Below are positions 12,384 through 27,535 of a stretch of 64,000 bases of DNA, in pieces. Below the pieces are notes generated by a model that saw only the letters and a list, made by a program, of their open reading frames with translations, was not told the origin of the DNA and searched no databases. The stretch covers positions 25,816 to 89,815 of the forward strand of contig JALHMG010000018.1 in NCBI GenBank assembly GCA_022844135.1, given 5' to 3'. Origin of the DNA: Lysobacterales bacterium (GTDB lineage: Bacteria; Pseudomonadota; Gammaproteobacteria; Xanthomonadales; SZUA-5). The translations under genes and the position numbers were made by a program. Position 1 is the stretch's first letter; every line of letters starts with the position of its first letter.

Positions 12384-13667
12384 ATGAAAGTCCTGGTGAT
12401 TGGCAATGGCGGTCGCGAGCACGCACTGGCCTGGCGGATACGCCAGTCGCCCCAGGTGCGTGAAGTACTGGTTGCACCGGGAAACGCAGGAACGGCATTC
12501 GAACCCGGCATGCGCAATGCGCCCGTGGCGCCAACGGATATCGATGGCCTGCTGGCACTGGCGCGGCAAGAGCGCGTCGATCTGACCGTCGTCGGACCAG
12601 AGGCACCGCTGTCGCTGGGCATCGTCGATCGATTTCAGGCGTCAGGATTGCGCTGCTTCGGCCCGACGCAAGCTGCCGCCCAACTGGAGGCCTCGAAGGC
12701 CTTCACCAAGGCCTTTCTGGAACGCCATCGGATTCCCACCGCGCAGTACCGCGTATTCACCGACCTCGATTCCGCCAAAGCCTACGTGCGCGACCGCGGC
12801 GCGCCGATTGTGGTCAAAGCCGATGGACTGGCGGCCGGCAAGGGCGTGGTCGTGGCACAGTCGGTGGCTGAAGCCGAATCGGCTTTGGATGCGATGCTGG
12901 GCGGCGATTCGGTGGGCGCGGCCGGGCATCGCGTGGTGATCGAAGACTTTCTCGCAGGCGAAGAAGCCAGCTACATCGTCATCGCCGATGGCACCAACTA
13001 CATCGCGCTGGCGACCTCCCAAGACCACAAGCGCCGCGACGATGGCGATCTCGGACCGAACACCGGCGGCATGGGCGCGTACTCGCCGGCGCCCGTGGTC
13101 ACCGCTGCCGTCGACGCCCAGGTGCGCCGCGAAATCATCGAACCTACGCTCGCTGCGATGCGCGCCGAGGGCCATCCCTTCGTTGGTTTTCTGTATGCAG
13201 GACTGATGATTCATCACGGCCGCGCTTCAGTGCTCGAATACAACGTGCGCTGCGGCGATCCGGAAACGCAGCCCATCATGCTGCGACTGAAAAGCGATGT
13301 GATCGAACTGTACCAGGCAGCCATCGACGGACGCCTTAGTCAAGTCGCGTGCGCCTGGGATCCACGCAGCGCGGTGGGCGTGGTGCTCGCGGCGGAAGGT
13401 TATCCGGGCCCGGTGCGCAAAGGCGATCCCATCGGCGGTTTGTCGGTGACGCAGTTGCCGGAGGTCAAAGTTTTCCACGCCGGAACCCGGCTCCGCGATG
13501 GCGTGGCCACGACCGACGGCGGTCGCGTACTCACCGTTTGCGCGCTCGGCGACACACTGTTGGCGGCCCGCAGGCTAGCCTACCAACGCGTCGAGTCGAT
13601 CCAATGGCCGGGGATGTTCTGTCGGCGGGATATTGGAGTGCGGGGGTTGGTGAATTCTTCGGCCTGA
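12384..13667 (+). CDS. purD: Phosphoribosylamine-glycine ligase (GAR synthetase)
   Basis: PurD joins phosphoribosylamine and glycine with ATP, the second step of purine synthesis. The 427 residues show the full ATP-grasp series: MKVLVIGNGGREHALAWRI at the N-terminus, GPEAPLSLGIVD, KADGLAAGKGVVVA, SQDHKRRDDGDLGPNTGGMGAYSP, and EYNVRCGDPETQPIM. The start is the ATG at 12384, which begins exactly at the conserved nucleotide-binding strand; the ten extra upstream codons from 12354 are not conserved. purH, its frequent partner, is not adjacent, and purC lies about 9 kb away. Confidence 0.97.
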   Translation: MKVLVIGNGGREHALAWRIRQSPQVREVLVAPGNAGTAFEPGMRNAPVAPTDIDGLLALARQERVDLTVVGPEAPLSLGIVDRFQASGLRCFGPTQAAAQLEASKAFTKAFLERHRIPTAQYRVFTDLDSAKAYVRDRGAPIVVKADGLAAGKGVVVAQSVAEAESALDAMLGGDSVGAAGHRVVIEDFLAGEEASYIVIADGTNYIALATSQDHKRRDDGDLGPNTGGMGAYSPAPVVTAAVDAQVRREIIEPTLAAMRAEGHPFVGFLYAGLMIHHGRASVLEYNVRCGDPETQPIMLRLKSDVIELYQAAIDGRLSQVACAWDPRSAVGVVLAAEGYPGPVRKGDPIGGLSVTQLPEVKVFHAGTRLRDGVATTDGGRVLTVCALGDTLLAARRLAYQRVESIQWPGMFCRRDIGVRGLVNSSA

Positions 13668-13839
13668 AAAGTTGGATCGTGATGCCGACGAATCAGACAG
13701 CTATCCACGGGCCGTAACCCATCGATCCGCCGCTGCAGTCGCTGCCGCATAGATGCGGATATGAAACGCAACAATGCTTGCAAATCGAAAACTGCTAAGC
13801 CATTGTCGATTTAGGACCGACGATCTGGCGGGGGCGTCG

Positions 13840-15273
13840 ATGCATCACGCGGTGATGATTTCAAGCACGTACAGCGATCTCAAGCGGATGCGGCAAGTTT
13901 TGATCGACGCCGCAATCAAGGCTGGGTTCTATCCCAAAGTCATGGAGTACAACGACGGCGCGGTCAACGCCAGCGCGCTGACCAATTCCTTAGCCATGGT
14001 GAACGACTCGCATGCTTATGTGCTGCTGATCGGTCGTCGCTACGGTCAGCGCCCGGCATCGCCCAGCAATCCCCAGAACTTGTCCATCACCGAACTGGAG
14101 TTCAACGAAGCCATTCGGCTGAAAAAGCCCGTGAAGTTGATCCTGCTCAGCGACACGTACCCGACTGGTGTCGGCGATCAACTCCAGACGGACATCGAAA
14201 GCCTGAAAGCCTTCCGTCAGCGCGCAAAAACCCTGGATGGCAATGCTGGCGAGCATCGAATCTACAAAGTGGTCAACACCAAGCAAGAGCTGTCGGACGC
14301 GGCCCGCGATGCGATGCGCGATTTGGCTGATTACCTTCGAATGCAGCCCAAGCGGCCGGTCGCAATGCCGACGCCAGCGTCGGCTGAAACACCCAGCGAT
14401 CCAAGCGCAATCGCCCAATTCGAATCCGCAGTCCGCATCTTGTTCGGAGCGGAGGGTCCTCTACACAGTTGGAAGAGAATCGAGCGCGCAAAAGCCCCAT
14501 CTGTTTTGCCGGCCTCGGTGCAGATGGCGTTGACCAACCCCGATCGAGGTTTGGGCGATCGGCTCAGCAGAATCGTCAGGCACGAATTGACCGGCGCTTT
14601 GGCCGACGACCTAAGGACCTACCGATTCACACTGTCGCCCAAGGGCCGTGTGGAAGTGCACATGTGCCTGGTGGATTGCATGGATGCCGCCATCAAGTTG
14701 TGTATGGACCCGGTCAAGCGCGGTGCGTTGCAGCAGATGCGCCAGGGCCTGTTGCACGTGCCTGCCCAAATGATTCCTGGCAGTGCTCTTGCGTTGAGAC
14801 TCAGGCCCTTGGACGGCCTTGAACTGAAGCCGAATAGCCCGAATCGTGCTTTAAGCGCAAAACACGTCGCAGAGTTTGGGTTGGAGGTAGGGCTTGGCGA
14901 TGACGCCAATTTCAGCCTCGCCAGTCTGGTTTGCTCGATACCGTCCAGTCGCAATCCGGAAGGCCGCGTGATATCGATCAACTCTGAGCGCGACGTCGAA
15001 GAATGGCGCGGCTTTCTGCTCGACGAACGAGGGCAGGGACGGGAGCGTCTGCTGGTTCTAGCACTGGAATTTGGCAATGCCTTGGGCGATACCGCCATTG
15101 CCTGGTTAGATAAGTTTGGCGTCAAGACAGTGCTGCTGGCCGGAGACACGGGCGGCACTTTCTGGTGGTTAGAAGAAAGCGTGCTCGTGGGACGGGTTAG
15201 TGGCTTTATCGAAGATGCCAACGCAATCCTTGGTGACGCTATTCAAGGGGCGAAATTGCAGGGGGCGTTGTAG
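13840..15273 (+). CDS. DUF4062 protein with shared C-terminal module
   Basis: This 477-residue protein opens the accessory island. Residues about 3-110 match DUF4062 (VMISSTYSDLKRMRQVL, DSHAYVLLIGRRYGQRP, LSITELEFNEA), a domain often placed at the N-terminus of STAND NTPases and other conflict-type signalling proteins. After a Pro/Ser/Thr linker, residues about 190-470 form a module homologous by eye to the C-terminal half of the next gene: LFGAEGPLHSW, IVRHELTGALADDL, CLVDCMDAAIKLCMDP, and a later part ending in FWWLEESVLVGRVSGFIEDA. I cannot name this module. The ATG at 13840 is preceded by a G-run; ATG at 13855 or an upstream TTG-like extension are alternatives. Its TAG stop overlaps the GTG of the kinase gene. 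Confidence 0.8.
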   Translation: MHHAVMISSTYSDLKRMRQVLIDAAIKAGFYPKVMEYNDGAVNASALTNSLAMVNDSHAYVLLIGRRYGQRPASPSNPQNLSITELEFNEAIRLKKPVKLILLSDTYPTGVGDQLQTDIESLKAFRQRAKTLDGNAGEHRIYKVVNTKQELSDAARDAMRDLADYLRMQPKRPVAMPTPASAETPSDPSAIAQFESAVRILFGAEGPLHSWKRIERAKAPSVLPASVQMALTNPDRGLGDRLSRIVRHELTGALADDLRTYRFTLSPKGRVEVHMCLVDCMDAAIKLCMDPVKRGALQQMRQGLLHVPAQMIPGSALALRLRPLDGLELKPNSPNRALSAKHVAEFGLEVGLGDDANFSLASLVCSIPSSRNPEGRVISINSERDVEEWRGFLLDERGQGRERLLVLALEFGNALGDTAIAWLDKFGVKTVLLAGDTGGTFWWLEESVLVGRVSGFIEDANAILGDAIQGAKLQGAL

Positions 15274-16907
15274 TGAACGCAAGTGACGCCGAAGGGAACG
15301 AGATGAACCGAACGCCCGTTCGTTCTGAATCGGTAGCGGCTTGGACGAGGTTTGAATCATGGTGGCTAAAGCCAGACGATTCACCTGTCGATCACAGCGG
15401 ACAGGCTCATATCGATTTTCTCTATGATCAACCGCGCGCAGAGGCGAAAGTTGTGGCTGTGCGCAAGCAAATGAAGGTGTTTACAGATCGCGCTCGTTTT
15501 TTACGCGAGATGCAGCTCAATCGACAGTTCTTTGCAGGTGACTTGTTTCTCGCCGGATCTGATACGCACGTTGAAAAATGCTGGATGGTTTTGCGCTATC
15601 TGTCGGGCGGTTCTCTACGGCAACGCTTTAGTTCGCGCCGTAGAATTCCAGACTGCCAAGCGCTACTGCGAAAGATCGCTCAATGTGTGGACAAAAACCT
15701 GTCGTTGAACGTTCTGCATCGCGATATCAAGCCCGAGAATCTGATGTTTGAAGGCCCAGGCGACGACGACAGGCTTTACTTGATCGATTATGGCATGGCG
15801 GTCGAGGCCGGAAAAGTGGGCGCCGAAACCGCCGCCCCCGAAAATGGTCGCGTTGGCACGCCGGCATACATGGCACAAGAGCGTCGCAATGGCGAACCGG
15901 CAAGCGTTGCGACAGAGATACGTGAGTTCGTAATCACCGCGATCGAAGTTGCACGATATTGTGGAAATTTTGCGCTAGCAGCCCAGTTCGAGCAGACTTC
16001 ACCGGATGCGCGGCATGGATTCGACAGCGCCGAAGCTCTGTTGGATGCGGTCTTCATCAGGTCGGGCGGTGGTCCCGATGCCGAGTTGCTGGCGAAGTTC
16101 TGGTGTATCGCGGAGCGCCTGTTTGGTCCGAAAGGACCACTCGGAGCTTGGCAAGGGCAAGGACTGCTGCCCAGAATTCGTTCGCTTCTCAGCTCCAGTC
16201 ATCCAAGAAAGGCGCCGAGTCTTGTACGATTTGTTAGACACGAAGTCACCAGCAAGCTGATTGGCGATATCAAGGACAGTCGAGTTTCTCTCTCTAAATC
16301 GCAACTTGGTAACATCGCTGGCGAGCTGGTTTCCTGTATGGACGTTGCCATTCAACTGTGCATAGATCCACAGCGTCGTAATGAGTTGATAGCTTTCAAG
16401 AATGCGCTGATAGAAGATCCGGACCAGACCGCACCCCTCCAACTCCCGGTGGAAACCAGGATAAGCGCCATTGTAGCGGTGCGTGGAGTCACGCCTGTAC
16501 ATGGGCAGCACCTAAGCGAGACGGCAGATCAAGAACTAGAGAACGGCGCCGGCGAAGATGCTCGCTTTGGATTTGCCGAGTGGGTTATTCAAAGACTGAT
16601 CGCTACAACGCCGCTCGGTAAGCCAATTTCCGTGCGCAGCCCGGAAGAATACAAAACCTGGAAAGGGAAATTTGCAGACGATCAGGCTGGTGGGAAAAGC
16701 CGAATATTGGTTCTGAGAAGTGACGAGTATGACAAACTCGGTTCTCAGAAAATCGGATGGCTATGTGACTTGCATATCCTGGTTATCAAGCTGGACGGGG
16801 CCGGAAGCTCATCGTTCTGGCAAATGAACGAACATCGGATGAATGCCACGGTAACTAATTTTGTGGATGATGTTAAGGAATTGCTGAAAAAGGCCGAAAC
16901 CCAATGA
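15273..16907 (+). CDS. Hanks-type Ser/Thr protein kinase with shared C-terminal module
   Basis: This is a 544-residue protein. The kinase domain (about residues 35-235) has a likely catalytic Lys in VVAVRKQ, Glu in LREMQL, a complete catalytic loop VLHRDIKPENLMF near residue 148, DYG in place of DFG near 171, and GTPAYMAQE in place of APE near 200. A glycine-rich loop is not evident. There is no membrane segment, so the kinase is cytoplasmic. Residues about 271-540 repeat the C-terminal module of the DUF4062 protein (RLFGPKGPLGAW, FVRHEVTSKLIGDI, ELVSCMDVAIQLCIDP, FWQMNEHRM). The GTG at 15273 overlaps the previous stop; ATG at 15303 with AAGGGA upstream is a good alternative. Its stop overlaps the MoxR start. 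Confidence 0.85.
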   Translation: MNASDAEGNEMNRTPVRSESVAAWTRFESWWLKPDDSPVDHSGQAHIDFLYDQPRAEAKVVAVRKQMKVFTDRARFLREMQLNRQFFAGDLFLAGSDTHVEKCWMVLRYLSGGSLRQRFSSRRRIPDCQALLRKIAQCVDKNLSLNVLHRDIKPENLMFEGPGDDDRLYLIDYGMAVEAGKVGAETAAPENGRVGTPAYMAQERRNGEPASVATEIREFVITAIEVARYCGNFALAAQFEQTSPDARHGFDSAEALLDAVFIRSGGGPDAELLAKFWCIAERLFGPKGPLGAWQGQGLLPRIRSLLSSSHPRKAPSLVRFVRHEVTSKLIGDIKDSRVSLSKSQLGNIAGELVSCMDVAIQLCIDPQRRNELIAFKNALIEDPDQTAPLQLPVETRISAIVAVRGVTPVHGQHLSETADQELENGAGEDARFGFAEWVIQRLIATTPLGKPISVRSPEEYKTWKGKFADDQAGGKSRILVLRSDEYDKLGSQKIGWLCDLHILVIKLDGAGSSSFWQMNEHRMNATVTNFVDDVKELLKKAETQ

Positions 16908-17854
16908 AAATCCCCGATTACTCAGCAACTCAGCTCGTTTTGCCCGCTATGTCTTCCTGGCCAGCGTCTGTGCACCTTTTCGACTCGCAGCAGCGGCTGG
17001 CCTTGCGGGCCGCGGAGGCTGCGGGAAGGCCGCTGTTGGTACGCGGCGATCCAGGCACTGGCAAGAGCCAGCTTGCGCATGCGGCGGCCGTGGCTGCGGG
17101 GCGTTTGTTTTTGCCTGTCGTGGTCGATGCGAACACGGAGTCTGGCGATTTGCTGTGGCGCTATGACGCGGTCGCGCGCTTGGCAGATGCGCATTTGAGT
17201 GGCGTTCCCGGCGGCGAGGGCAAGCGCAGTTTGTCGGCGAAGAATTACGTGCAGCCTGGGCCATTGTGGTGGGCTTTCGACTGGGCGAGCGCCCTAGAAC
17301 AGAACGGCTCGCTTGAAGCTGCGCCAGCTGCGCCAGTCGCGCCAGATAACTGGTCGCCTCAGCGAGGTAGTGTGGTGTTGATCGATGAGATCGACAAAGC
17401 TGAAGCCGAGCTACCGAACGGGCTGTTGGAAGCGCTGGGAAATGGCGGCTTCCACGTGCCTTTGGTGCCAACGACAGTGCGGCGGCCGACGGCACTGCCA
17501 GCGCCGTTGGTCATCATCACCACTAACGAAGAACGAGAGTTGCCGGCGCCATTTCTGCGCCGCTGCCTGGTGTTGAATCTGAAGCTGCCGCAGGGTGAGG
17601 CTCTGAAGCAGTTCTTGGTGGCGCGTGGCCGTTTGCATTTCCCAGAACTCGCAGCAAGTAGTCCCGAATGCCTGCAGCAAGCGGCCCAAATGCTGCTGGA
17701 TGATCGGCATGCTGCGCAGGAAGCGGGCGCCTACCTGCCCGGTTTAGCCGAGTATTTGGATCTCTTGCGCGCGGTGCAGCAAATTGATCCGGAGAATCCG
17801 CTCGCACTATTGCAAGAGGTTCGGCGCTTTGTGTACGTCAAACACAGTGCTTAA
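16904..17854 (+). CDS. MoxR-type AAA+ ATPase
   Basis: This is a 316-residue AAA+ ATPase of the MoxR class, usually a chaperone that remodels a partner carrying a vWA-like domain. Walker A is GDPGTGKS (about residue 48), Walker B VVLIDEIDKAEAELP (about 157), and sensor 1 with the arginine region is IITTNEERELPAPFLRRCL (about 205). The N-terminus has no signal. It overlaps the kinase stop in an ATGA junction and is followed after 42 bases by a large protein that should be its partner. In known MoxR-based conflict systems the ATPase pairs with vWA-like and effector or sensor proteins; that role is inferred here from order and coupling. Confidence 0.9.
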   Translation: MKIPDYSATQLVLPAMSSWPASVHLFDSQQRLALRAAEAAGRPLLVRGDPGTGKSQLAHAAAVAAGRLFLPVVVDANTESGDLLWRYDAVARLADAHLSGVPGGEGKRSLSAKNYVQPGPLWWAFDWASALEQNGSLEAAPAAPVAPDNWSPQRGSVVLIDEIDKAEAELPNGLLEALGNGGFHVPLVPTTVRRPTALPAPLVIITTNEERELPAPFLRRCLVLNLKLPQGEALKQFLVARGRLHFPELAASSPECLQQAAQMLLDDRHAAQEAGAYLPGLAEYLDLLRAVQQIDPENPLALLQEVRRFVYVKHSA

Positions 17855-17896: not shown

Positions 17897-20776
17897 ATGA
17901 GTCGTCGGGAACCGCATGCCGTTGAGCCGCCGCGTCTGCATCGCGCCGGCATATGGCGTGGCCATCTCCTGCGAGCGCTTGACAATGAGCGCCATTTCTC
18001 AAGCGGCGCAGCGGCCGTGATCGCGCTCGAGGCGACGGAGCTGGCGTTGCTGTTCGGCTATGGGGTCAGAGCCGACATTCCAGAGGTCAGACCACAGGAA
18101 TACAAGTTGGAGCCGGCTGCCGAGACACCAGCGGAGACAGCCGCCGCGCAGACCGTCGAGAAGCCCAAGCTGCGCGCAACGATGTATCAAGTGACCCAGG
18201 TGCCAACCAACAAGGAGTCCGCTGATTCCGCTCAGCCAGCACCGATTCCCCTGGTGAAGCTGCCGCTTGCCGATAGGAAGCTGAAACCACCTATCCAGCG
18301 CTTGTTGGTGCCCGACGCACGGCTTGCGGCTTTTGTCCGGCGCAACCTGAGGCAAGGCAAGCCGGGCAATCAGATCGATCTTCTACGCTGGATCGCTTTG
18401 GTGGCGCGTGCCGAAGTGCCAAAGCGCCTGCCAAAGCGGATGCGGAATAAGTGGGGTGCTCATTGCGCTGTGATCGTCAACAACTACGGCGATTGCGAGC
18501 CCATCCGCGAAGATCTGAATCAGCTCGTCCAGGTGGTGCAGTTGCGCTCGGGCGGCGCGACGCCGATTTATCTGCTGGATCCCGAAGGGCAACTCTGGCG
18601 TCGCAAATCAGCAAAGGCAACAGCCGGGAGCGCTTGGCGTGAATGCGCGCCAGACACGCCGCTGCAGCATCGCCATTGGCTTTGGGCAGGCGCCGATCCA
18701 TGGCATGAGCCGCTTTCGAACTGGCGCGATGCACTTGCAGCCAAAGCGCGCGGCGCTGGCGTGACCTGGCTAACGCTGGCTGCCGCAGACAGCGCAGCGC
18801 TGCCTGGCGCGAAGCGCGTCACGTGGGAGTTCGCCGCAGCGTTGCGCGTGCAGCGCGGACCAGCGGCCGCTGTCAAAGTGGAGCAGGTTGAGCGCCTGCT
18901 GACGGCCATGGCTTTCGCTATCCGGATCGAACCGGCGTTGTTGCGAGAGCTGCGGCTGCTATTGCGTTTGTCTGTGGCGACCGAGCTGGCAGCTTGGCAG
19001 CACCCCGACTCACAGTCTTGCCCGATCGCTTGCTGGCTAAGGCAGGACGCGATAGCGGCCAGGCGTGCCGCCGCGCTGCAACTTCCGGAGTCTCTGCGCA
19101 CGGAAATCGCTCGCACGGTAGCCGGGCAGCACCACGCGCTATCGCCGCTGATACAGGCTGAAGAATCGGCTTTGGCCTCCGTATTGGCGCCCGGCGCGTG
19201 CATCGATCGCGACGGACAATTGTGGGCGAATATCGTGGCAACCTTGCGTGCCAACAACGCCCAAGCAGAAGACTGCGCCCGTTATGTGCGGCGCATCCGC
19301 GCGCGCGCGCACCCAGAGTTCTGGCGGCAAAACGAAGCGATTGCCGAGGCGTGGCTGTTGAGCGAGCGAGATAGTCTGCAAGAGGGCGGCGAGCTGCCGG
19401 AGGGCATTTCGGGCGAGTTGGCGGCGCGTGTGTTGGCTGAAGACAGCGCCCACGCGCTGCGAAGCGACTGGAGCCTGGTTCAAAACCGGGAGAGGCTGCA
19501 GTTAGTGCCTGGCGTGATCCGCCACAGGTTGGCGCGGCTGACGGTGGCTGGCAGTGGGATACAAATCGGACAAAACGGTTCTCTGCGGCGTGTTGCGCTG
19601 TCGCAAGGTGCCGGTCTGGGCGAGGCACAACTTGCGCCGATCATGCTCTGGCACGCAGACGAACGTATTGAGATTCTGCATGTCGACCGCCCCGCCTGGG
19701 CTCAGGAATTCGGCCGCGACCGCGCGGGTGTTTACGCACTCACGCCAGCGTTCGCCGGTACGCAGGCGAAGTTCCACCTATTGCCACCCGAGCAAGCCTG
19801 CACCGAAAGTCCGTTTCTGCGTGCAGATGAGGATCAACGCTGCATTGAATTTGTCCGTGGAAAGGTGCTGTGCCGGTTGGGTTTCGACCTGGCTTTCGGC
19901 GCCTTTGCTGAGCTGCAAATTGGCAAGGCCGTTCAGCGCTTTCGCTGGGTCTCGCCCGGCAAGTTTTGGATGGGCTCGCCGGACAACGAGCCTGAGCGCG
20001 ACAGCGATGAGGGCCCGCGTCACGTTGTGCGAATCAGCCAAGGCTTTTGGCTGGCCGATACCGCATGCACCCAAGCGTTGTGGCGGGCGGTGATGGACCA
20101 GAACCCCAGCCATTTCGAGGGCGATGAGCTGCGGCCCGTGGATAGTGTCAGTTGGCTGGACGCTCAAAAGATGTTCAAGCAGATGGCGGAACTGGGTTTA
20201 CCGGGTGCGGATTTGCCCACGGAGGCGCAGTGGGAATACGCGTGCCGTTCGGGCACGCAGACGCCGTTTCATTTTGGCGCGCAGATTGATCCCGGCAAGG
20301 CGAATTACGACGGCAATTTTCCCTATGCCGGCGGTGAAAAGGGCGAATATCGCGAGTGCACCGTGGCGGTGAAAGCGCTGCCAGCAAACGACTGGGGGCT
20401 GTTTCAGATGCATGGCAATGTGTGGGAGTGGTGCAAAGACGGCTTGCGCGATTACGTGGCGCATGGCGAAGCCGTGTCGGACCCGGAGGGGCCGCAAGGC
20501 AAGGATGCGCAGCGTGCGCTGCGCGGCGGCTCTTGGCTCAGCGACGCCGGGGACTTGCGCGCCGCCTATCGCAGCGCGTACTTGCCCGAGGGCCGGAGCG
20601 GCTACTGGGGCTTGCGTCTTGTCCTGAGGTCCACGAGCCCAGACCAGACCAGCGTGGCGGCGGAGCCGCCATTGAAGGCGCCTGCGGAGCAGGCGGCTGG
20701 GCTTGGCGCCGCTGGAGGCGGCGTCGGCCCGGCGGGACGCCGGGCCGGCAACAAGTCTGAAGGTGAGCATTCATGA
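17897..20776 (+). CDS. MoxR-associated protein with C-terminal hypervariable SUMF1 (DGR target-like)
   Basis: This is a 959-residue protein. Residues 1-90 are an uncharacterised start, about 90-145 an Ala/Pro/Lys linker. Residues about 150-330 contain an alpha/beta segment (CAVIVNNYGDCEPIRED, PIYLLDPEGQLWR) that may be a degenerate vWA-like domain lacking DxSxS, as in MoxR-linked SAV2336-type proteins; about 330-670 is mostly helical. A SUMF1/C-type-lectin module fills about 675-915 (FWMGSPDNEPERDSDEGPR, LPTEAQWEYACRSGT, MHGNVWEWCKDG, ALRGGSW). Residues 881-903 form the variable core that differs from the neighbouring paralogue in the manner of a DGR variable repeat. The Ala/Gly tail is encoded by a hairpin array. 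Its stop overlaps the ATG of a truncated accessory gene. The long N-terminus is functionally unassigned. Confidence 0.82.
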   Translation: MSRREPHAVEPPRLHRAGIWRGHLLRALDNERHFSSGAAAVIALEATELALLFGYGVRADIPEVRPQEYKLEPAAETPAETAAAQTVEKPKLRATMYQVTQVPTNKESADSAQPAPIPLVKLPLADRKLKPPIQRLLVPDARLAAFVRRNLRQGKPGNQIDLLRWIALVARAEVPKRLPKRMRNKWGAHCAVIVNNYGDCEPIREDLNQLVQVVQLRSGGATPIYLLDPEGQLWRRKSAKATAGSAWRECAPDTPLQHRHWLWAGADPWHEPLSNWRDALAAKARGAGVTWLTLAAADSAALPGAKRVTWEFAAALRVQRGPAAAVKVEQVERLLTAMAFAIRIEPALLRELRLLLRLSVATELAAWQHPDSQSCPIACWLRQDAIAARRAAALQLPESLRTEIARTVAGQHHALSPLIQAEESALASVLAPGACIDRDGQLWANIVATLRANNAQAEDCARYVRRIRARAHPEFWRQNEAIAEAWLLSERDSLQEGGELPEGISGELAARVLAEDSAHALRSDWSLVQNRERLQLVPGVIRHRLARLTVAGSGIQIGQNGSLRRVALSQGAGLGEAQLAPIMLWHADERIEILHVDRPAWAQEFGRDRAGVYALTPAFAGTQAKFHLLPPEQACTESPFLRADEDQRCIEFVRGKVLCRLGFDLAFGAFAELQIGKAVQRFRWVSPGKFWMGSPDNEPERDSDEGPRHVVRISQGFWLADTACTQALWRAVMDQNPSHFEGDELRPVDSVSWLDAQKMFKQMAELGLPGADLPTEAQWEYACRSGTQTPFHFGAQIDPGKANYDGNFPYAGGEKGEYRECTVAVKALPANDWGLFQMHGNVWEWCKDGLRDYVAHGEAVSDPEGPQGKDAQRALRGGSWLSDAGDLRAAYRSAYLPEGRSGYWGLRLVLRSTSPDQTSVAAEPPLKAPAEQAAGLGAAGGGVGPAGRRAGNKSEGEHS
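20040..20700 (+). repeat. Direct repeat copy 1 (SUMF1 3' half)
   Basis: About 660 bases covering the SUMF1 module and beginning of the tail recur at about 21300-21965. By eye the copies are over 90 percent identical outside the variable core, with scattered, partly synonymous differences upstream and a 71-base block without any difference immediately after the core. This points to a gene or cassette duplication, probably with later gene conversion. Boundaries are approximate. Confidence 0.85.
20537..20605 (+). repeat. Candidate DGR variable repeat core, copy 1
   Basis: This 23-codon core of the first SUMF1 module aligns without gaps to 21800-21868. Twelve codons differ by 17 substitutions, all in codon positions 1 or 2 and none in position 3. 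Ten of the twelve differing codons end in C in both copies (for example CTC/GGC, GAC/TAC, GAC/TTC, AGC/GTC, GGC/AAC), as expected if each came from AAC in a template repeat. The 3' flank is identical for 71 bases, as expected for an initiation-of-mutagenic-homology zone. Confidence 0.8.
20656..20743 (+). repeat. Array of four GGA-loop hairpins, copy 1
   Basis: Four short inverted repeats follow each other: 20656-20670 (6-base stem, GGA loop), 20679-20695 (7-base stem, GGA loop), 20708-20722 (5-base stem around TGGAG), and 20729-20743 (6-base stem, GGA loop). They lie in the coding region just after the conserved block behind the variable core and encode the Ala/Gly/Pro tail. DGRs are known to use hairpins just downstream of the variable repeat for retrohoming, so a recombination role is possible; a stem-loop repeat family is the alternative. 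Confidence 0.7.
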
Positions 20777-20961
20777 GCCTGCATTTTTTTGCCGTTCCTG
20801 CTTTGGATGGCGGCAGCGCAGAAGAGGCGCTGAATCGCTGGTTGTTCGCGCAACGCGTCGTCCAGATCGAGCGCCAGTTTGTCGCCGATGAGACACGCTC
20901 GTTTTGGGCGATGTGTGCCACCGTGATTTCAGGCGCTGGCCGGAAAGCGCGGGCGCCATGA
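20773..20961 (+). pseudogene. Truncated DGR-type accessory gene (HRDC-like N-terminus), copy 1
   Basis: This 62-codon frame starts with ATG overlapping the SUMF1 gene's TGA. Its first 50 residues (SLHFFAVPALDGGSAEEAL, then VVQIERQFVADETRSFWAMC) resemble the N-terminus of the HRDC-domain accessory proteins that sit next to DGR targets, normally over 100 residues long. The frame stops where a twin-hairpin repeat (20951-21012) begins, so the gene looks broken by that insertion and has lost its HRDC part. A shorter remnant of the same gene follows the second SUMF1 gene. Assignment to the HRDC family is from memory of the N-terminal motif and needs a profile search. Confidence 0.55.
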
Positions 20962-21012
20962 ATGGCGCCCCTACGGTTGCAAGGTCTCGTAGGGGCGCGA
21001 TTCATCGCGCCC
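20951..21012. repeat. Twin-hairpin (BIME-like) element
   Basis: Two 20-base hairpins flank a 22-base spacer. The first (20951-20970) has a 9-base stem GGGCGCCAT with loop GA; the second (20993-21012) has a 9-base stem GGGCGCGAT with loop TC. The spacer begins CTAC and ends GTAG. The element interrupts the accessory gene remnant. A near copy of the second hairpin occurs at 59869-59887, so this is a dispersed repeat of the genome. Confidence 0.75.
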
Positions 21013-21085
21013 GGTGCGAGACCACGTCTTATGCCCAGTTGCCGAATGTTTCGTGCCGATTCGGTGGCACAACGTTGGGTCGACA

Positions 21086-22033
21086 ATGCCCGAGCCGCTA
21101 ATGGATCGTTACCCCGAACCCTTTCCACCGCCGTGGGCCGACGCCTGGGGCGATGATCAATATGGGCTTTGGGCCGAATTCGAGATCAATGAGGTGCGGC
21201 AGCGCATGCGCTGGATTGAGCCGGGTGAGTTTTGGATGGGCTCGCCAGACGATGAGGCCGAGCGCATCTCCGCGCGCGAGGGTCCGCGTCATTGGGTGCA
21301 GATCAGCCAAGGCTTTTGGCTGGCCGACACTGCGTGCACCCAAGCTTTGTGGCGGGCGGTGATGGACCAGAACCCCAGCCATTTCGAGGGCGATGAGCTA
21401 CGGCCCGTGGATAGTGTCAGTTGGCTGGACGCTCAAAAGATGTTCAAGCAGATGGCGGAACTGGGTTTACCGGGTGCGGATTTGCCCACGGAGGCACAGT
21501 GGGAATACGCGTGCCGTGCGGGCACGCAGACGCCGTTTCATTTTGGCGCGCAGATTGATCCCGGCAAGGTGAATTACGACGGCAATTTTCCCTATGCCGG
21601 CGGTGAAAAGGGCGAGTTTCGCGGCCGCACGGTGCCGGTGAAATCGCTGCCCGCGAACGACTGGGGCCTGTATCAAATGCATGGCAATGTTTGGGAGTGG
21701 TGCAAGGATGGTTTGCGCGATTACGCCCAGCGTGCGGTGACGGACCCGGAGGGGCCGCAAGGCAAGGATACGCAGCGTGCGCTGCGCGGCGGCTCTTGGG
21801 GCGGCTACGCCAGGTTCTTGCGCGCCGCCTATCGCGGCGCGGGCTCGCCCGAGCGCCGGGTCAACTTCTGGGGCTTGCGTCTTGTCCTGAGGTCCACGAG
21901 CCCAGACCAGACCAGCGTGGCGGCGGAGCCGCCATTGAAGACGCCTGCGGAGCAGGCGCTTGAGGCTGGCGCCGCCGGAGGCGGCGTTGTACCGGCGGGA
22001 CGCCCGGCCGGCAAGAAGCCGGGCGGGCGTTGA
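21086..22033 (+). CDS. Free-standing hypervariable SUMF1 protein (DGR target-like)
   Basis: This is a 315-residue protein made almost entirely of a SUMF1/C-type-lectin module. It begins MPEPLMDRYPEPFPPPWADAWG, then RWIEPGEFWMGSPDDEAE, LPTEAQWEYACRAGT, MHGNVWEWCKDG and ALRGGSW. Residues 239-261 are the variable core. It lacks the long N-terminal part of its upstream paralogue and has no signal peptide. No catalytic role is inferred; the fold in DGR targets is a ligand-binding scaffold that displays variable residues. The start is uncertain: ATG 21086 or 21101, both with weak ribosome-binding sites; a longer frame from 21014 runs into repeat DNA. A 37-codon remnant of the accessory gene overlaps its stop. 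Confidence 0.82.
   Translation: MPEPLMDRYPEPFPPPWADAWGDDQYGLWAEFEINEVRQRMRWIEPGEFWMGSPDDEAERISAREGPRHWVQISQGFWLADTACTQALWRAVMDQNPSHFEGDELRPVDSVSWLDAQKMFKQMAELGLPGADLPTEAQWEYACRAGTQTPFHFGAQIDPGKVNYDGNFPYAGGEKGEFRGRTVPVKSLPANDWGLYQMHGNVWEWCKDGLRDYAQRAVTDPEGPQGKDTQRALRGGSWGGYARFLRAAYRGAGSPERRVNFWGLRLVLRSTSPDQTSVAAEPPLKTPAEQALEAGAAGGGVVPAGRPAGKKPGGR
21300..21965 (+). repeat. Direct repeat copy 2 (SUMF1 3' half)
   Basis: This is the second copy of the repeat at about 20040-20700, carrying the second variable core. The order variable core, identical block, hairpin array and accessory-gene remnant is the same in both copies, so the duplicated unit included more than the SUMF1 module. Boundaries are approximate. 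Confidence 0.85.
21800..21868 (+). repeat. Candidate DGR variable repeat core, copy 2
   Basis: This is the partner of 20537-20605. Variable codons here are GGC, GGC, TAC, AGG, TTC, GGC, GGC, TCG, CGC, GTC, AAC and TTC, separated by invariant codons for Ala, Leu, Arg, Tyr, Pro and Glu. The unmutated AAC codon at 21863-21865 fits a template codon. The predicted template would carry A at every position that differs between the copies. TR itself is not in the window. Confidence 0.8.
21919..22004 (+). repeat. Array of four GGA-loop hairpins, copy 2
   Basis: The arrangement mirrors 20656-20743. Hairpins lie at 21919-21933, 21942-21958, 21971-21985 and about 21994-22004. In this copy the third hairpin is a perfect 6-base stem with a GGA loop while the fourth has decayed to four pairs; in copy 1 the third is the imperfect one. 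Keeping the GGA loops while stem bases change suggests the structure rather than the peptide is conserved. Confidence 0.65.
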
Positions 22034-22143
22034 TCAGCTTGCATTTGCGTGCCATCCCGGCACTCGATGGCAGCGCTGCATCGGATGTGCTGAATCGTCG
22101 CCAAGTCACGGCTTGTTGGCGAATCGAGGCGCGGGCAAACTAA
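22030..22143 (+). pseudogene. Remnant of DGR-type accessory gene, copy 2
   Basis: A 37-codon frame from a TTG overlapping the preceding TGA reads ISLHLRAIPALDGSAASDV and then LNRR, matching the first 24 residues of the copy 1 remnant (SLHFFAVPALDGGSAEEAL). Similarity ends after LNRR and the frame stops at 22143. It is too short to function and marks the point where a longer accessory gene was deleted. Confidence 0.55.
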
Positions 22144-22176
22144 CTTTTCTAAACTAAGTCCGTAGAGATGATCGCC

Positions 22177-22389
22177 ATGGACGTGATCAATATCCACGAC
22201 GCCAAAACGCAGCTTTCGAAGTTGGTGGAGCTGGCCGCCACTGTGCGGGAGTTCATCATCGCCAAAGCGGGTAAACCGATGGTGCGAGTGGTGCCGTACC
22301 ACATTGAGGCGTTGCATCATTTGGGCGGCTTAAAGGGGCAGGCCGTCTTGGATTTGGACCTCAAGGCGGACTTTAGCGACGAGATTTAA
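22177..22389 (+). CDS. Orphan Phd/YefM-type antitoxin
   Basis: This 70-residue protein has the Phd/YefM pattern MDVINIHDAKTQLSKLVE followed by IIAKAGKPMVRVVPY and a short acidic tail ending LKADFSDEI. Antitoxins of this class bind their own promoter and neutralise a partner toxin, often a VapC-type PIN RNase, encoded immediately downstream. Here no toxin frame follows: 61 bases later the convergent glycosyltransferase ends. It may be a solitary remnant or could work on a toxin elsewhere. ATG 22168, three codons earlier, is an alternative start. Confidence 0.75.
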   Translation: MDVINIHDAKTQLSKLVELAATVREFIIAKAGKPMVRVVPYHIEALHHLGGLKGQAVLDLDLKADFSDEI

Positions 22390-22450
22390 GCGATGTTTTC
22401 AGGATCAGGCCGCGAAGCGACCTAGGACTAATTCCCGCGAATGTCTTGCC

Positions 22451-23614
22451 TCAGCGCAAATGCTCCTGAAGCCGCTCGGCGACGGTTGACCAATCGAACT
22501 GCGGGTCTCGCACGTGCGCCAATGCAGCGGCGCTGGCGGTGGTCCAATGCGGCTCGTGGTGCAGTTGCGTGAGCGCGGTAGCGATGTCGTTGGGCTGCAC
22601 CTCCACCATCCGCAGCGGCGAGATTGGTGTGCGTATGGGTCTTGCTGGCAGGCAATGCGCGTTCGTGCCCCACAGCTCGATCAGCGCGGCCTGTCCCGGC
22701 ACGATTTGCGGCGCGCCGGTGGCGGCGTGTTCGAAGCTCACCAGGCCAAAACCTTCACCGTGCGCGGTGTTAATGCCAACACTGCACGCGTTGTAGAGCG
22801 CGTTGAGATCGATGTCGCTGAGTGGCCCTGGGGTTTTCGGCCAGAACAGTACGCGATTTTGAATGCCGAGCGCGGCGGCCTGCTGGCGCAATGCATCGAT
22901 GGCCGGTGTGTGTTCGATCGCGTGATGCAGGCACAGGTACGCGTCTGCGTGTGCCCTGGCAAAAGGCGCGAAACCGGCCAAGGTGAGATCGATGCGTTTG
23001 CGCGGATCGGGACGGGCGGCGTTGAGGATTACGAAGGCCGGTGCGTCGAGGCCAAATAGCGTTTGTGCCTGGCGTTTCTTCTCCTCAAGCGTGAGCGCGG
23101 TTGGTCGAAATCTCGAGCGATCGACGCCGTGCCCCGCAACGGCCACGGGCAGATCAAGATGCGCCTCGCGCGCAACCGCGCGCACGTTGTCGGCGGCCGA
23201 TTCGGTGTACGTGACCAGCGTGCTGAACGCGACCAGCGCTTCGATCCAGCGCGGGTCGTCGAGGATGCCGTCGATGGGCGCATAACCCACCATCGGCACC
23301 GCGCCGCGCAGCGGGCCGAGCGTGTGCGTGTAGTGTTTGAGATACCAAAGATCGTTGAGCGCGAGCACCGCATCAGGCGCGAGTTCCTCCCAGGCAGCGG
23401 CGGCAGCATAAGCGCCAACCAGATCGCCACCGCGAAGGTTCGTAGGCAGAACTTTGACGCCCGGCATGGGTTCGAAGACATCGCCCTTGAAGCCGACGCC
23501 GTACCACGTGATGCGGAATTCTTGCGCCAGATATGGCAGCAGCGATTCCAGCACGCGCGTAAAGCCCGTGCCGGGTTTGTACCAGCCAAGCAGCAGCAGG
23601 TGGCGTTTCGTCAC
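22451..23614 (-). CDS. GT4-type glycosyltransferase
   Basis: This is a 387-residue GT-B fold glycosyltransferase. The N-terminal strand RHLLLLGWYKPGTGF with a Gly-rich turn fits the acceptor domain; the donor domain contains ILNAARPDPRKRIDL, then a D/E-rich stretch and the EX7E motif EGFGLVSFEHAATG near residue 310. It should act in the cytoplasm on a cell-surface sugar, sugar unknown. I chose the GTG at 23614 because the family core begins there; the 30 upstream codons to 23704 look random. It stands alone, convergent with the antitoxin and separated from the next leftward gene by a dispersed inverted repeat. Confidence 0.82.
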   Translation of the reverse strand: MTKRHLLLLGWYKPGTGFTRVLESLLPYLAQEFRITWYGVGFKGDVFEPMPGVKVLPTNLRGGDLVGAYAAAAAWEELAPDAVLALNDLWYLKHYTHTLGPLRGAVPMVGYAPIDGILDDPRWIEALVAFSTLVTYTESAADNVRAVAREAHLDLPVAVAGHGVDRSRFRPTALTLEEKKRQAQTLFGLDAPAFVILNAARPDPRKRIDLTLAGFAPFARAHADAYLCLHHAIEHTPAIDALRQQAAALGIQNRVLFWPKTPGPLSDIDLNALYNACSVGINTAHGEGFGLVSFEHAATGAPQIVPGQAALIELWGTNAHCLPARPIRTPISPLRMVEVQPNDIATALTQLHHEPHWTTASAAALAHVRDPQFDWSTVAERLQEHLR

Positions 23615-23699
23615 GCTATCGAGTCTTCGGGTATGGGTTGTTGCCCTGAAAGGGAGGCAGCTCGGTTTGATGCAACGATCCCGGTCCGCCACTTTCGCG

Positions 23700-23786
23700 T
23701 TCACACGAAGACCGAAACCACGAAGAGGTCAGGATTCCCTTATGCGAGGAGACTTCGTGTCTTGATGTCTTCGCGGCTTCGTGTGG
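23700..23786. repeat. Dispersed ACACGAAG inverted repeat, copy 1
   Basis: The left arm (TTCACACGAAGACCGAAACC) and right arm (reverse complement containing CTTCGTGTCTTG and GGCTTCGTGTG) form an imperfect inverted repeat built from CACGAAG motifs. A tighter version is at 51881-51941. Both are intergenic. This looks like a non-autonomous dispersed repeat of the genome. Confidence 0.55.
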
Positions 23787-23803
23787 GCTGGCTTCGGGCA
23801 CAG

Positions 23804-23825
23804 CCAGCGCCGCAAGCGGCGCTGG
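23804..23825 (-). terminator. Possible hairpin terminator after 23840-24376 gene
   Basis: A perfect 10-base stem (CCAGCGCCGC and GCGGCGCTGG) with loop AA begins 15 bases after the stop of the leftward gene at 23840. There is no T-run on the transcript side, so it could be a rho-dependent transcript end or a repeat. Confidence 0.4.
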
Positions 23826-23839
23826 CGGCGCGCTGCGCA

Positions 23840-24376
23840 TCAGCTCCCCAACTGCACCGGCGTGTAAATCACGCCACCGTTGGGCTGTTTTACCGGATCG
23901 AGCAGCAGGGTTTGGATGCACTGGATGCCGGTGTCGCTGCTGGCGTCCATCGCTTCGAAACCAGGATTGCTGTCGCCATAGGTGGTGACGAAGGAATACG
24001 CGAAACCGCCCAGGGTGCCGCAACCGAACTGATTACCCAACTGCTCGATGGCGAGCAAGCCAACACCTGCCCCGTTTTCCTGCAGGAAGCTCGTCAGCGA
24101 GCCCTGTGGTTGATTGTCGAAGGTGACGCCAAGCGTGGTCACAATCAAGATGTCGCCGGGGCTTGCCGCCAGGGCTGGCGCCTGGTTGCCAGAAGCCTGA
24201 AACACATTAGCGACTACTTTGAGCGTTGCCGAGTCGAGCACCAGAAACCAATAGCCTTGCAGGCCTGGGTTCGTCGTCTGTTGGTTATAAGTGTTGGTTC
24301 CCACCGCGATGTTCGAAAACGGATAGCTGGACGTGGGCATGTATGAAAACAGCGAAAGCGGTACAGGTGAGGCCAT
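23840..24376 (-). CDS. Unknown protein, paralogue of the 24482-25012 gene
   Basis: This is a 178-residue protein without signal peptide or membrane segment. It shares with its right-hand neighbour the core GYWFLVLDSATLKVV, PGDILIVTTLGVTFDNQPQG, LLAIEQLGNQFGCGTLGGFAY and KQPNGGVIYTPVQL. The alternation of beta strands with a LVLD start and an IVTT-type strand is reminiscent of the ILEI/FAM3-type lectin-like domain, but that is a guess. The ATG at 24376 has GGAG eight bases upstream. The product may be part of the surface cluster that follows on the same strand. Function unknown. Confidence 0.7.
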   Translation of the reverse strand: MASPVPLSLFSYMPTSSYPFSNIAVGTNTYNQQTTNPGLQGYWFLVLDSATLKVVANVFQASGNQAPALAASPGDILIVTTLGVTFDNQPQGSLTSFLQENGAGVGLLAIEQLGNQFGCGTLGGFAYSFVTTYGDSNPGFEAMDASSDTGIQCIQTLLLDPVKQPNGGVIYTPVQLGS

Positions 24377-24481
24377 TGCAGTTCTCCAAGGTTGGTCAAA
24401 GCTGTGGCGCTGCAATCAACGGTATGGACGCGCTCTGCGCGCCCGGCACCGCAACGGATGCGGGATCTGCTGATCCGGTCG

Positions 24482-25012
24482 TCAGGCCAGCGCGATCGGT
24501 GTGTACATCACGCCGCCATTGGGCTGATTGACAGCCAGCAATGACAATGTCTGGATGGCAGTGTAGCCGGGTTGTACTTCGGTGTTGCATGCCTCGAAGC
24601 CCGGATTGGGGTCGTTGAGCGTGGTGACGAAGGTGTACGTGAACCCGCCCAGCGAGCCGCAGCCGATCTGCGTGGCCAACTGCTCGATAGCCAGCAGGCT
24701 CGTGCTTGCGCCATTGGCCATCAGGAAATTAAAGAGCGCGCCTTGCGGCTGGTTGTCGAAGGTGACACCGAGCGTTACGACCGCAAGCAGATACCCCGGG
24801 CCGCTGACACCAAAGTTCGGCACTGTGCTGCCGCTCTGCTCAACCGCGTTGAACACAACGTTGAGATTCGAGGCGTCCAGCACAACGTACCAATAGCCTT
24901 GTTGATAGTTCGATAACTGTTGCGTCAATCGGTTGGTGCCGACTGCAATGATTCCAGCCGCATATTGTGCGGGTCTTGTACCCATGACACTGATCGGAAC
25001 GGTGTTCGCCAC
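24482..25012 (-). CDS. Unknown protein, tandem paralogue
   Basis: This 176-residue protein resembles the preceding entry along its length (GYWYVVLDASNLNVV, LAVVTLGVTFDNQPQG, LLAIEQLATQIGCGSLGGF, NQPNGGVMYTPIAL), with divergent N-terminal 25 residues. Paired Cys in GCGSLGG are kept in both. The start is GTG at 25012 behind a near-perfect GGAGG. The two genes lie 105 bases apart and arose by tandem duplication. No family is recognised with certainty; no transmembrane segment is visible. Confidence 0.72.
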   Translation of the reverse strand: MANTVPISVMGTRPAQYAAGIIAVGTNRLTQQLSNYQQGYWYVVLDASNLNVVFNAVEQSGSTVPNFGVSGPGYLLAVVTLGVTFDNQPQGALFNFLMANGASTSLLAIEQLATQIGCGSLGGFTYTFVTTLNDPNPGFEACNTEVQPGYTAIQTLSLLAVNQPNGGVMYTPIALA

Positions 25013-25093
25013 GGCAACCTCCTTCGCGTTGTGTTATCGAAGTCTACAACTGCGAAATTGCGCTAACATGATTTTTTTCAGGAGGGACAGGGC

Positions 25094-25387
25094 ATGGGTG
25101 AGTTGCTGACGACGCTGCGGTTAGAGGACTTCAGCGCGCTGGTTGGGCGCACCATCGATGTGCAAATCGATGATCGTTTTGTCGCTTCGCAAGTTTTGGC
25201 CGCGCGCAAGGTGGGCGGTAGTTCGTTGCGTGAGGGCGGTGGATTCGCTGTCGATTTGCGGCTGCCGCTGCACACGCCTCGCCAAGGCGTTCTGCTGACG
25301 CGATTGCCGCAGGGTGAGGTGGGCATTTTCATGTCGCCGCGTAAAGTTGTCGGCGGGGAAGTCGAATACGAGGCAGTTTTCAACTGA
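25094..25387 (+). CDS. DUF6916 family protein
   Basis: This 97-residue protein begins MGELLTTLRLEDFSALVGRT and ends EVEYEAVFN, the hallmarks of the small DUF6916 family (about 90-100 residues), which commonly occurs beside tail-collar (MdpB-like) genes as it does here. Function is unknown. AGGAGG lies eight to thirteen bases before the ATG, giving strong translation. It is read opposite to the tail-collar operon, and a broken methyltransferase gene reading toward it ends 24 bases past its stop. Confidence 0.75.
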   Translation: MGELLTTLRLEDFSALVGRTIDVQIDDRFVASQVLAARKVGGSSLREGGGFAVDLRLPLHTPRQGVLLTRLPQGEVGIFMSPRKVVGGEVEYEAVFN

Positions 25388-25411
25388 TCCAGCACTCGCT
25401 GCGGTTGAACC

Positions 25412-25621
25412 TCAAGCGCTCGCTTCGCCGCGATGCGTTTTGCGGAAGATCGAAATAGAGCGTCTGCCGCGACCGGTGCCAACGCCGAGTTCCAGCACGC
25501 GACAGCTGCCCGCAGGCCGTGCGACTTCGCTGAGGCAGCCTGGGTCTAATAGTGGATAGAGCTGGTCGTAGATCGACGCGTTGCTGTCGCCATAACAGCA
25601 ATCAGGCAGGCGCTCGGACAT
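25412..25621 (-). pseudogene. Truncated SAM-dependent methyltransferase
   Basis: A 69-codon frame (MSERLPDCCYGDSNASIYDQ, then LYPLLD and VLELGVGTGRG) contains the N-terminal region and glycine-rich SAM-binding motif I of a class I methyltransferase. After motif I the sequence becomes RRSISIFRKTHRG and stops, where VALPLA and about 180 further residues would be expected. The start overlaps the end of the GNAT gene by 20 bases, the normal operon arrangement. It is therefore a 3'-deleted gene whose break lies next to the DUF6916 gene. Confidence 0.6.
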
Positions 25622-26132
25622 TCGCCGCTCGCACCAGGAACTGATAAACGCCGCGGTCTTCCGAATGCTCAAAACCTAACCGCAGATACCACGCCATCGC
25701 TGGATTGTTCGACTCGACGTGTAGCGAGATGCCGGCGCCAGAGCTTTCGGATTCGTCGATCAGTTCGGCCAACATCGCCCGACCGAATCCGCGTCCGCGA
25801 CAGGACCGCAGCAGCGCGATATCCATCAGGCGAATGTCGCTGGCCGAACGAAATATGTAGACACGTCCAATGGCTTGCCCATCGAAAGCCACGAGCAAGC
25901 GGTCGGCGCCAACGTAGTTCGTCGAATAGTAGCTGTGCTGCTGATTGAACTGCTGCTGCAAGAAGGCCAGCTTGGCTTCCTCCGGCCATTGAACCGGCGC
26001 CAGTTCTTCATGCCGCATGTCTGCATAGAGGGCGGCCAAAAAAGGCAGGTCGCCATCGTCGATTGGCCGAAACGATAGCCCGTGAGGGCGCGCGGGATGG
26101 GCTGGAGTGAGGAAAGCGCGCGATTGCGTCAT
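25602..26132 (-). CDS. GNAT family N-acetyltransferase
   Basis: This is a 176-residue acetyl-CoA-dependent transferase. The GNAT fold is shown by LSFRPIDDGDLPFLAALYADM at the start, LMDIALLRSCRGRGFGRAML (acetyl-CoA-binding R/QxxGxG/A as RGRGFG, near residue 113) and LHVESNNPAMAWYLRLGFEHSE at the end. The ATG overlaps the TGA of the upstream exported protein (ATGA). The substrate is unknown; genes of this subtype often travel with tail-collar proteins, suggesting modification of a surface structure or small molecule. Confidence 0.85.
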   Translation of the reverse strand: MTQSRAFLTPAHPARPHGLSFRPIDDGDLPFLAALYADMRHEELAPVQWPEEAKLAFLQQQFNQQHSYYSTNYVGADRLLVAFDGQAIGRVYIFRSASDIRLMDIALLRSCRGRGFGRAMLAELIDESESSGAGISLHVESNNPAMAWYLRLGFEHSEDRGVYQFLVRAANVRAPA

Positions 26133-26725
26133 GTGGTCTCGATCAGCAGTGCGTCGAAGTCGCGTGGTGAGCCATCGGCCAAACGCAAGTCCCGCTCGCC
26201 TGGGAAGTAACGCAAGTCCATCAACTGCGGCGGACGACCAGAGCTGGAACGGGCGCTGGCGAGTACGACCAAACTGCCGCCGGGCACCTGTTCAGACCAC
26301 GCGCTTCGGTTCGATGCTGATTTTTCTCCAAGACCGCGGACAGAACTGACGGCAACATGCGCACGTGCGCCCAATGGGAATTGCATTTTGACGGGATTGC
26401 CCGTCATGCATTGATGCGCCGATCTGGAGAGATGCCACGCCATAATCACGCGTGTGATGCCGCCACTATCTGGCAGCGACAAATCGACGCTCCAGGTTTT
26501 CAGGCGGTTGTCTGACGGTGTCTCGTCCGGCCAGAACTTGCGGATGTGAATCGCGGAAATCGGAGCGTTGGCCTGCGTCCGGACCTCAATCGGAATGAAT
26601 GCGGAAGACTCTTGAAACGTCGGCGCAGCGCTGATCGTTCTCGTAGAGAAGGTTGCGCCTGCCGGTCGGCTCAAGCCGGCAAAGGCAATGGCCCCACCAG
26701 CCCCGATCACGCTGCGACGGTTCAT
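26129..26725 (-). CDS. Exported protein with twin-arginine-type signal
   Basis: This 198-residue protein starts MNRRSVIGAGGAIAFAGLSR, a short twin-arginine signal followed by a cleavable AGA site, so the mature part is probably periplasmic or secreted. The rest is beta-rich with no recognised domain; polar segments such as FIPIEVRTQANAPISAIHIR suggest a sandwich fold. The ATG at 26725 is chosen for the signal peptide and for GAGG six bases upstream; a longer frame from 26836 adds 37 unlikely residues. It lies between the methyltransferase and GNAT genes of the tail-collar operon. Confidence 0.68.
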   Translation of the reverse strand: MNRRSVIGAGGAIAFAGLSRPAGATFSTRTISAAPTFQESSAFIPIEVRTQANAPISAIHIRKFWPDETPSDNRLKTWSVDLSLPDSGGITRVIMAWHLSRSAHQCMTGNPVKMQFPLGARAHVAVSSVRGLGEKSASNRSAWSEQVPGGSLVVLASARSSSGRPPQLMDLRYFPGERDLRLADGSPRDFDALLIETT

Positions 26726-26890
26726 ATCAGACCTCAGACGGGCGGCAGGATTGCGCGCTCGGAGACTGGCGGTAGTTCGCATGCGGGTCAATATCTGCGA
26801 AGTACCTAATTGAAACCTCACGTTGGTGCGAATCATCGGCGGCGTGTCGAAACTTTATCGCTCGGGTTCCGATGGCTCTGAACGATTGCC

Positions 26891-27517
26891 TCAGAGCCTG
26901 CCGGCGAGCGCCTCGCGGTAGTCGATGGGCCAGAAACCCTGCCAGCTCGACCATGGTCGATGGTGTTCCAGGAGCCGTGCCACGTCGTCATCGACACTGT
27001 CCCCGTCCGGGTCTGGCCAGATGTCGTGCCATACGGTGTCGAACAGCAGGTTGGCCGTGGGTCGCCAGTGATACGCGTCACCATGAACGATCGCGACCCG
27101 GTCGCCGAACTGTTGTTGCAGGTGCGGCGCCACGAGTTGGATCACGTCTGCCGATTGCTCGATCACGGTGATGGTGCCGACCGGGGCCAGGGAAGGCTGA
27201 GCCAAGATCGCCTCAACCACCATTCCTAAGCCCAGGCCGGTGATAAGCACATTGCCGCCGACCTGGCGCGCCCGCTCGATGGCCCGTCGCTGCGTCCACC
27301 ATTCGTCGTACAAATCGGTCATGAAAGTGACGCCACCATGGCGCAGCTCGGTGTATTCGCCGGGGCGGAAACGAAACGCGTCCGGGCGGGAGTCGACCAC
27401 GCTCGTGGCTGCCCGTTCCGGCAGCCTGAGCTTGGTCAACGTCCAGTTTCCGCTGCGCCCGGCCGGAAGCGAACTCGGCCGATAGGGCGGAAGGGCAAAA
27501 GCCGAGTTCGGGTCCAT
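26891..27517 (-). CDS. Class I SAM-dependent methyltransferase (spermidine synthase-like)
   Basis: This is a 208-residue protein with Rossmann-fold methyltransferase features: VLITGLGLGMVVEAIL (motif I, about residue 90), TITVIEQSADVIQLV with the acidic ribose-binding Glu (about 116), IVHGDAYHW (about 142), and DTVWHDIWPD (about 160), which resembles spermidine-synthase-like proteins. The N-terminal 60 residues form a small beta region (FRPGEYTELRHGGVTFMTD). It lies 18 bases after the third tail-collar gene. The acceptor is unknown. Confidence 0.78.
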   Translation of the reverse strand: MDPNSAFALPPYRPSSLPAGRSGNWTLTKLRLPERAATSVVDSRPDAFRFRPGEYTELRHGGVTFMTDLYDEWWTQRRAIERARQVGGNVLITGLGLGMVVEAILAQPSLAPVGTITVIEQSADVIQLVAPHLQQQFGDRVAIVHGDAYHWRPTANLLFDTVWHDIWPDPDGDSVDDDVARLLEHHRPWSSWQGFWPIDYREALAGRL

Positions 27518-27535
27518 CTGATCAGAGGCTTCCTG

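Follow-up and report, generated by a model that had tools for sequence, protein, structure and literature searches.

Two neighbouring genes of a Lysobacterales bacterium carry the marks of targeted hypermutation, which raises the question of what wrote these marks and whether the writer is still present. The genes lie in a 64,000-nucleotide stretch of assembly GCA_022844135.1 (contig JALHMG010000018.1, positions 25,816 to 89,815), which is called the window below and to which all coordinates refer unless another contig is named. Diversity-generating retroelements (DGRs) perform mutagenic reverse transcription of a template repeat (TR), placing random bases opposite adenines, and the variable repeat (VR) of a target gene is then replaced up to a site for the initiation of mutagenic homing (IMH). 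The two repeats of the window were very probably written by such an element, whose reverse transcriptase (RT) and template were not found in the draft assembly and are likely to have been deleted from the gap between the targets, which would leave both receptors frozen. The genes and repeats concerned are the following.

17897 to 20776, + strand: target 1, 959 residues, with an FGE-sulfatase domain at residues 684-909 (E 1.9e-37)
20508 to 20631, + strand: variable repeat 1 with flanks (core 20537-20605; IMH-like CTGAGG at 20624-20629), 79% identical over 124 bases to the TR of a sister species (locus L108)
21014 to 22033 (listed open reading frame), + strand: target 2, a short FGE-domain protein (Pfam FGE-sulfatase, E 7e-43)
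21770 to 21894, + strand: variable repeat 2 with flanks (core 21800-21868; IMH-like CTGAGG at 21887-21892), 78% identical over 125 bases to the same sister TR

The footprint and a template in a sister species

The two cores were aligned in frame and without gaps. They differ at 17 of 69 sites, in 12 of the 23 codons, with 10, 7 and 0 changes in codon positions 1, 2 and 3, respectively, which bears out the pattern claimed in a preliminary description of this DNA. The single difference claimed within the 57 bases 5' of the cores was also recovered (at 20507), and the identical block reported directly 3' of them is present, with a length of 72 bases and not 71. Upstream, 141 aligned codons hold 6, 7 and 19 changes in positions 1, 2 and 3 (16 synonymous and 11 non-synonymous codons), and the share of position 3 differs from that of the core (Fisher P = 2.6e-5); over 188 upstream codons, position 3 holds 29 of 55 changes (Fisher P = 3.6e-5). 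Outside the repeats both genes are copies that diverged in the ordinary way, whereas the core diverged otherwise.

Among 60 relatives searched, one congener (G001, the sister species) has a locus that shares both flanks with the window (22436-28147 at 82-88% and 13755-14340 at 77%) and consists, in this order, of a C-terminal RT fragment, an AAC-rich TR immediately behind it and target 2. The RT fragment (120 amino acids) covers profile positions 221-326 of 337 with an E-value of 4.5e-24 and is 36-50% identical to five DGR RTs. Target 2 has an internal gap there and stops ahead of its variable repeat, and no other target copy was found in the sister genome with a 611-base query at E 1e-6. Adenine occupies 22 of the 69 core sites of the sister TR, and these include 16 of the 17 sites at which the window repeats differ from each other (hypergeometric P 5.9e-10), a test that reads the window repeats against the template of another species. 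At the 12 differing codons this TR has AAC ten times, AGG once and TCG once. The preliminary description had taken both genes for DGR targets, with a template of AAC codons at the variable sites, and this view gains support from the Pfam FGE-sulfatase (SUMF1-type) domains of both genes and from a sister-species template of the predicted kind. The window repeats have CTGAGG where the sister TR has CTGAGC, and it is this G/C difference between VR and TR that suggests an IMH role for CTGAGG.

Elsewhere in the window, 46531-47490 aligns in inverted orientation (84%) with sequence that neighbours the DGR relic on the sister contig, which points to a rearrangement distinguishing the two species.

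The search for the mutator and the stretch between the targets

The assembly searched (G000) is a draft of 5.34 Mb in 75 contigs with 99.83% completeness. RVT_1 searches returned two RTs, neither of which was retained as a DGR RT. The first (L002 1315-2295, minus strand, contig C1) is nearest to retron St85 RTs, with 184 bits against a model cut-off of 235; the second (C2:121034-121747), whose frame contains one TAA, stands before an open reading frame read as Cas1 by eye and is perhaps a CRISPR-linked RT. RVT_1 alone misses C-terminal RT fragments, including that of the sister, which is caught by a DGR-RT profile; this profile, built on six DGR RTs and used at E up to 10, matched only the second of these RTs in this genome. 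Template patterns left open at the variable sites and allowing up to 3 mismatches matched only the repeats themselves, for both of the repeat families considered below, and blastn of the repeat region at E up to 10 gave 41 matches, of which the two repeats scored 100% and 89% identity and the next best 69%. No complete accessory gene was found in the assembly: the accessory profile matched the remnant in the window and, through its HRDC part, a 660-residue frame elsewhere that is presumably RecQ-like.

A phage-borne template was sought with two VR/TR patterns in viral contigs, which gave 0 and 0 exact matches. The target protein search listed 22 phage records, every one below 60% identity, and the DNA search one plasmid (67%). 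For adenine-site variation in close strains, the best 120 of 2688 proteins were inspected, none of which except the query exceeded 70% identity. As neither a TR nor a DGR-type RT was found in the genome, mutagenesis is either past or dependent on something unassembled.

The stretch between the targets was assembled within one contig and contains neither RT nor TR. Together with the end of target 2, it holds the following features.

20773 to 20961, + strand: truncated start of an HRDC-type DGR accessory gene (profile of five accessory proteins, positions 1-60 of 165, E 3.5e-13)
20950 to 21013, no strand assigned: hairpin element of a dispersed family resembling miniature inverted-repeat transposable elements (MITEs), 64 bases, 26-nucleotide arms, 92% complementary
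21014 to 21091, + strand: possible, weak vestiges of TR and the RT end (from an alignment with the sister locus that preserves order)
22033 to 22098, + strand: second, smaller accessory remnant after target 2 (59% identity over 22 amino acids to the first remnant)

The first accessory remnant stands directly after target 1, at the place it has in the gene order of relatives, and keeps about the first 50-60 codons (50% identity over 56 amino acids to the accessory protein of L025); the HRDC domain, present in full-length relatives, is missing. The second remnant, taken alone, showed no match to accessory genes of other species. The hairpin lies between the first remnant and target 2, where relatives carry RT and TR, and copies of its arm motif number 15 in this genome (both arms here counted) and 3 in the sister, against 0 for a reversed-pattern control. 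As the sister homology starts at 21092, target 2 more likely begins at an ATG near 21086-21101.

Origin and fate of the repeats

Under the DGR reading, the RT would have used an AAC-rich template repeat and inserted random bases wherever it met adenine, and the resulting cDNA would have overwritten the 3' end of each FGE-domain gene as far as the IMH-like CTGAGG. The repeats would be frozen because RT and TR are absent from the draft assembly. We infer the deletion of RT and TR, with its order and cause, and likewise that nothing unassembled still drives mutation.

Several observations weigh against this reading. Searches with RVT_1, the DGR-RT profile, template patterns and blastn found no DGR-type RT and no TR in the assembly, although a template repeat next to such an RT was what the preliminary description expected a whole-genome search to reveal. 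The same description held that it would be contradicted by the absence of both from the complete genome combined with strain comparisons showing changes at third positions or at non-adenine template sites; the absence was indeed found, in a draft and not a complete genome, while 16 of the 17 variable sites are adenine in the sister template. The remaining variable site, 20583 (TTG/TCG), is C in that template, and the window repeats differ from it at 9 and 8 further non-adenine sites of 102, which we attribute to divergence between the species. The vestiges of RT and TR at 21014-21091 are weak: none of 500 shuffles attained the score of the longer alignment, yet 6 of 646 other pieces of the window did, and an alignment restricted to the RT end was equalled by 10 of 300 shuffles. 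Finally, one pair of FGE genes elsewhere in this genome (contig C21) lacks the footprint, with 17 of 41 changes in position 3 (P 0.24).

This pair is one of three located outside the window. The genome has 13 FGE domains in total, and FGE pairs with a MoxR homologue nearby also occur on contigs C5 (80000-93000), C7 (78000-93000) and C21 (54000-67000). The four repeats of C5 and C7 have fixed codons in common, and 22 of their 24 variable sites are in positions 1 or 2. Each of the six pairings has 1 or 2 changes in position 3 within the repeat and 85 to 101 upstream of it (Fisher P 6e-5 to 0.007), so that, as judged from sequence, they appear as a second family with an adenine-type footprint. 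Given the shared fixed codons and this footprint, a single template is likely to have served at least two loci. The C21 pair, with repeats varying at all three codon positions, was not supported as a further DGR product; it either decayed or was never written from one shared template.

An alternative is that the DGR is still active and that a complete RT and TR, missed by the assembly, carried by a mobile element or present in other members of the population, go on rewriting the repeats in trans. The draft state of the assembly (75 contigs) and the fresh look of the six repeats on C18, C5 and C7 would agree with this, and there is a precedent in Thiohalocapsa, for which the excerpts used here of Dore et al. 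(2024; PMC10907252) describe incomplete loci diversified in trans, with intact variants of loci 3 and 7 in the population. At 99.83% completeness, however, neither RVT_1 nor the DGR-RT profile yielded a candidate, two template patterns and blastn recovered no TR, the scans of viral contigs returned nothing, and the inter-target stretch is closed within one contig without RT or TR. We therefore consider continuing activity in trans unlikely. Far less probable still is an origin without any retroelement, in which positive selection, or segment exchange among FGE paralogues, would have acted on a naturally variable face. The repeat-bearing end of the FGE fold is a variable binding face, and 13 FGE domains are available in the genome; yet no third close copy exists as a segment donor (next match 69% identical), and 0 of 17 against 29 of 55 changes in position 3 would be left unexplained, as would adenine at 16 of 17 sites in the RT-linked repeat of the sister. 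The sister TR nearly refutes such an origin.

With the writing of the repeats by a DGR as the preferred reading, a wider proposal can be made, to which we give slightly less than even credence: at least six receptor domains were hypermutated by two DGR families, both mutators were lost genome-wide with the last-written versions fixed, and the sister lost the reciprocal half, retaining a template without a variable repeat to write into. The two congeners hold complementary wreckage of one locus, so that one shows the template and the other what was made from it. The interest of the case lies in this complementary decay and in footprints that outlive a mutator not found anywhere in the genome. 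Frozen receptors, if true, resemble an acquired repertoire becoming germline-encoded. If closed genomes confirm the loss, the frozen repeats provide a clock and a test of selection on the last random receptor sequence, a test that bears on what putative antigen sensors recognise.

Neighbouring genes and comparison with known systems

Two genes precede target 1 in the window.

15273 to 16907, + strand: protein-kinase-like gene, directly upstream (Pfam Pkinase, E 6.7e-14)
16904 to 17854, + strand: MoxR-like AAA ATPase gene (Pfam AAA_5, E 1.6e-10)

The MoxR-like gene ends 42 bases ahead of target 1; its name was taken from the literature, the family match itself being AAA_5. The long N-terminal part of target 1 had no Pfam match, and no vWA domain, as a MoxR/vWA ternary conflict system would have in the target or a neighbour, was matched at E 1e-3 by Pfam in target 1 or the two upstream genes, where a diverged form is possible. 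Named relatives of one neighbouring gene came from a mixture of groups (Xanthomonadales, Wenzhouxiangellaceae, Planctomycetes and Methylovulum). After target 2, a small open reading frame (22168-22389) looks by eye like a Phd-type antitoxin, as judged from a motif. On the minus strand, two adjoining similar frames (23840-24415 and 24482-25012) apparently form a tandem pair, and the sister locus has both too.

Complete DGR loci were sought among 80 named loci of the nearest relatives, and a DGR-like RT was present in 11 fetched stretches (10 by motif), including 6 of the best 8; its absence from the others means little, since many fetched stretches end at contig ends. MoxR relatives were found in the fetched stretch of 6 of 6 proteobacterial DGR-RT loci (L025-L028, L030, L032). 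In four of the six (L026, L028, L030, L032), two variable repeats flank the RT and a further repeat, and the order target, HRDC accessory gene, RT, TR, target is seen in Accumulibacter (L026), Methylomonas koyamae (L028) and Zoogloea (L032). Over five complete loci and nine VR/TR pairs, 130 of 133 differences fall on template adenines (L025 was left out, as the motif gave no VR there), and the G/C difference at the IMH-like site is GGT/GCT in 4 of the 5 loci and GTT/GCT in L030. Homologous FGE targets and a MoxR homologue link the window with L026, L028, L030 (Magnetococcales) and L032, whose templates are AAC-rich. The N-terminus of the accessory gene is likewise shared with L026, L028 and L032; in L030 nothing matched the remnant of the window at E 1e-5. 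These four loci keep RT and TR between the targets, where the window has the hairpin and the truncated accessory gene. In Accumulibacter meliphilus (L042), accessory-gene starts were observed at 9154-9339 and 12522-12686, after two targets. The first of these starts gives way to repeat-like sequence about 55 codons in, and the fetched 20 kb yielded no RT match; the RT may have been lost here in parallel.

Among solved structures, target 2 is closest in sequence to the DGR variable protein TvpA of Treponema (2y3c, E 1e-19), a distant relative that aligned over parts of the protein only. Closer in situation are the distal targets of Pseudogulbenkiania which, in the available excerpts of Schillinger et al. 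(2012; PMC3521204), stand beside a decayed or mutated RT, as here; that genome retains a second RT. Within the titles and abstract openings of the literature on degenerate, orphan or lost DGR parts, no report was found of a genome that keeps targets after the loss of all DGR RTs.

The nearest likeness is to the MoxR-linked cellular DGRs of clade 5A, as described in the same excerpts of Dore et al. (PMC10907252). Their variable sites are almost only in codon positions 1 and 2, as here, and the gene order of the window agrees with the description given (section 13), the likeness to clade 5A being one of gene order. A sensor role for MoxR-linked targets is put forward by those authors as putative, and by analogy the targets of the window may serve as sensors in a MoxR-linked conflict system. 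The genome they describe keeps one complete locus per class, in contrast to the one examined here, for which none was found; known degenerate DGR loci sit beside a working copy, which masks the fate of targets once mutation stops. Their degenerate loci have MITE-like repeats in place of the RT, like the hairpin of the window. To judge from these excerpts, the literature already describes degenerate DGR loci, the replacement of an RT by MITEs and paired MoxR-linked targets, and the window contains a degenerate DGR locus of this known, MoxR-linked type.
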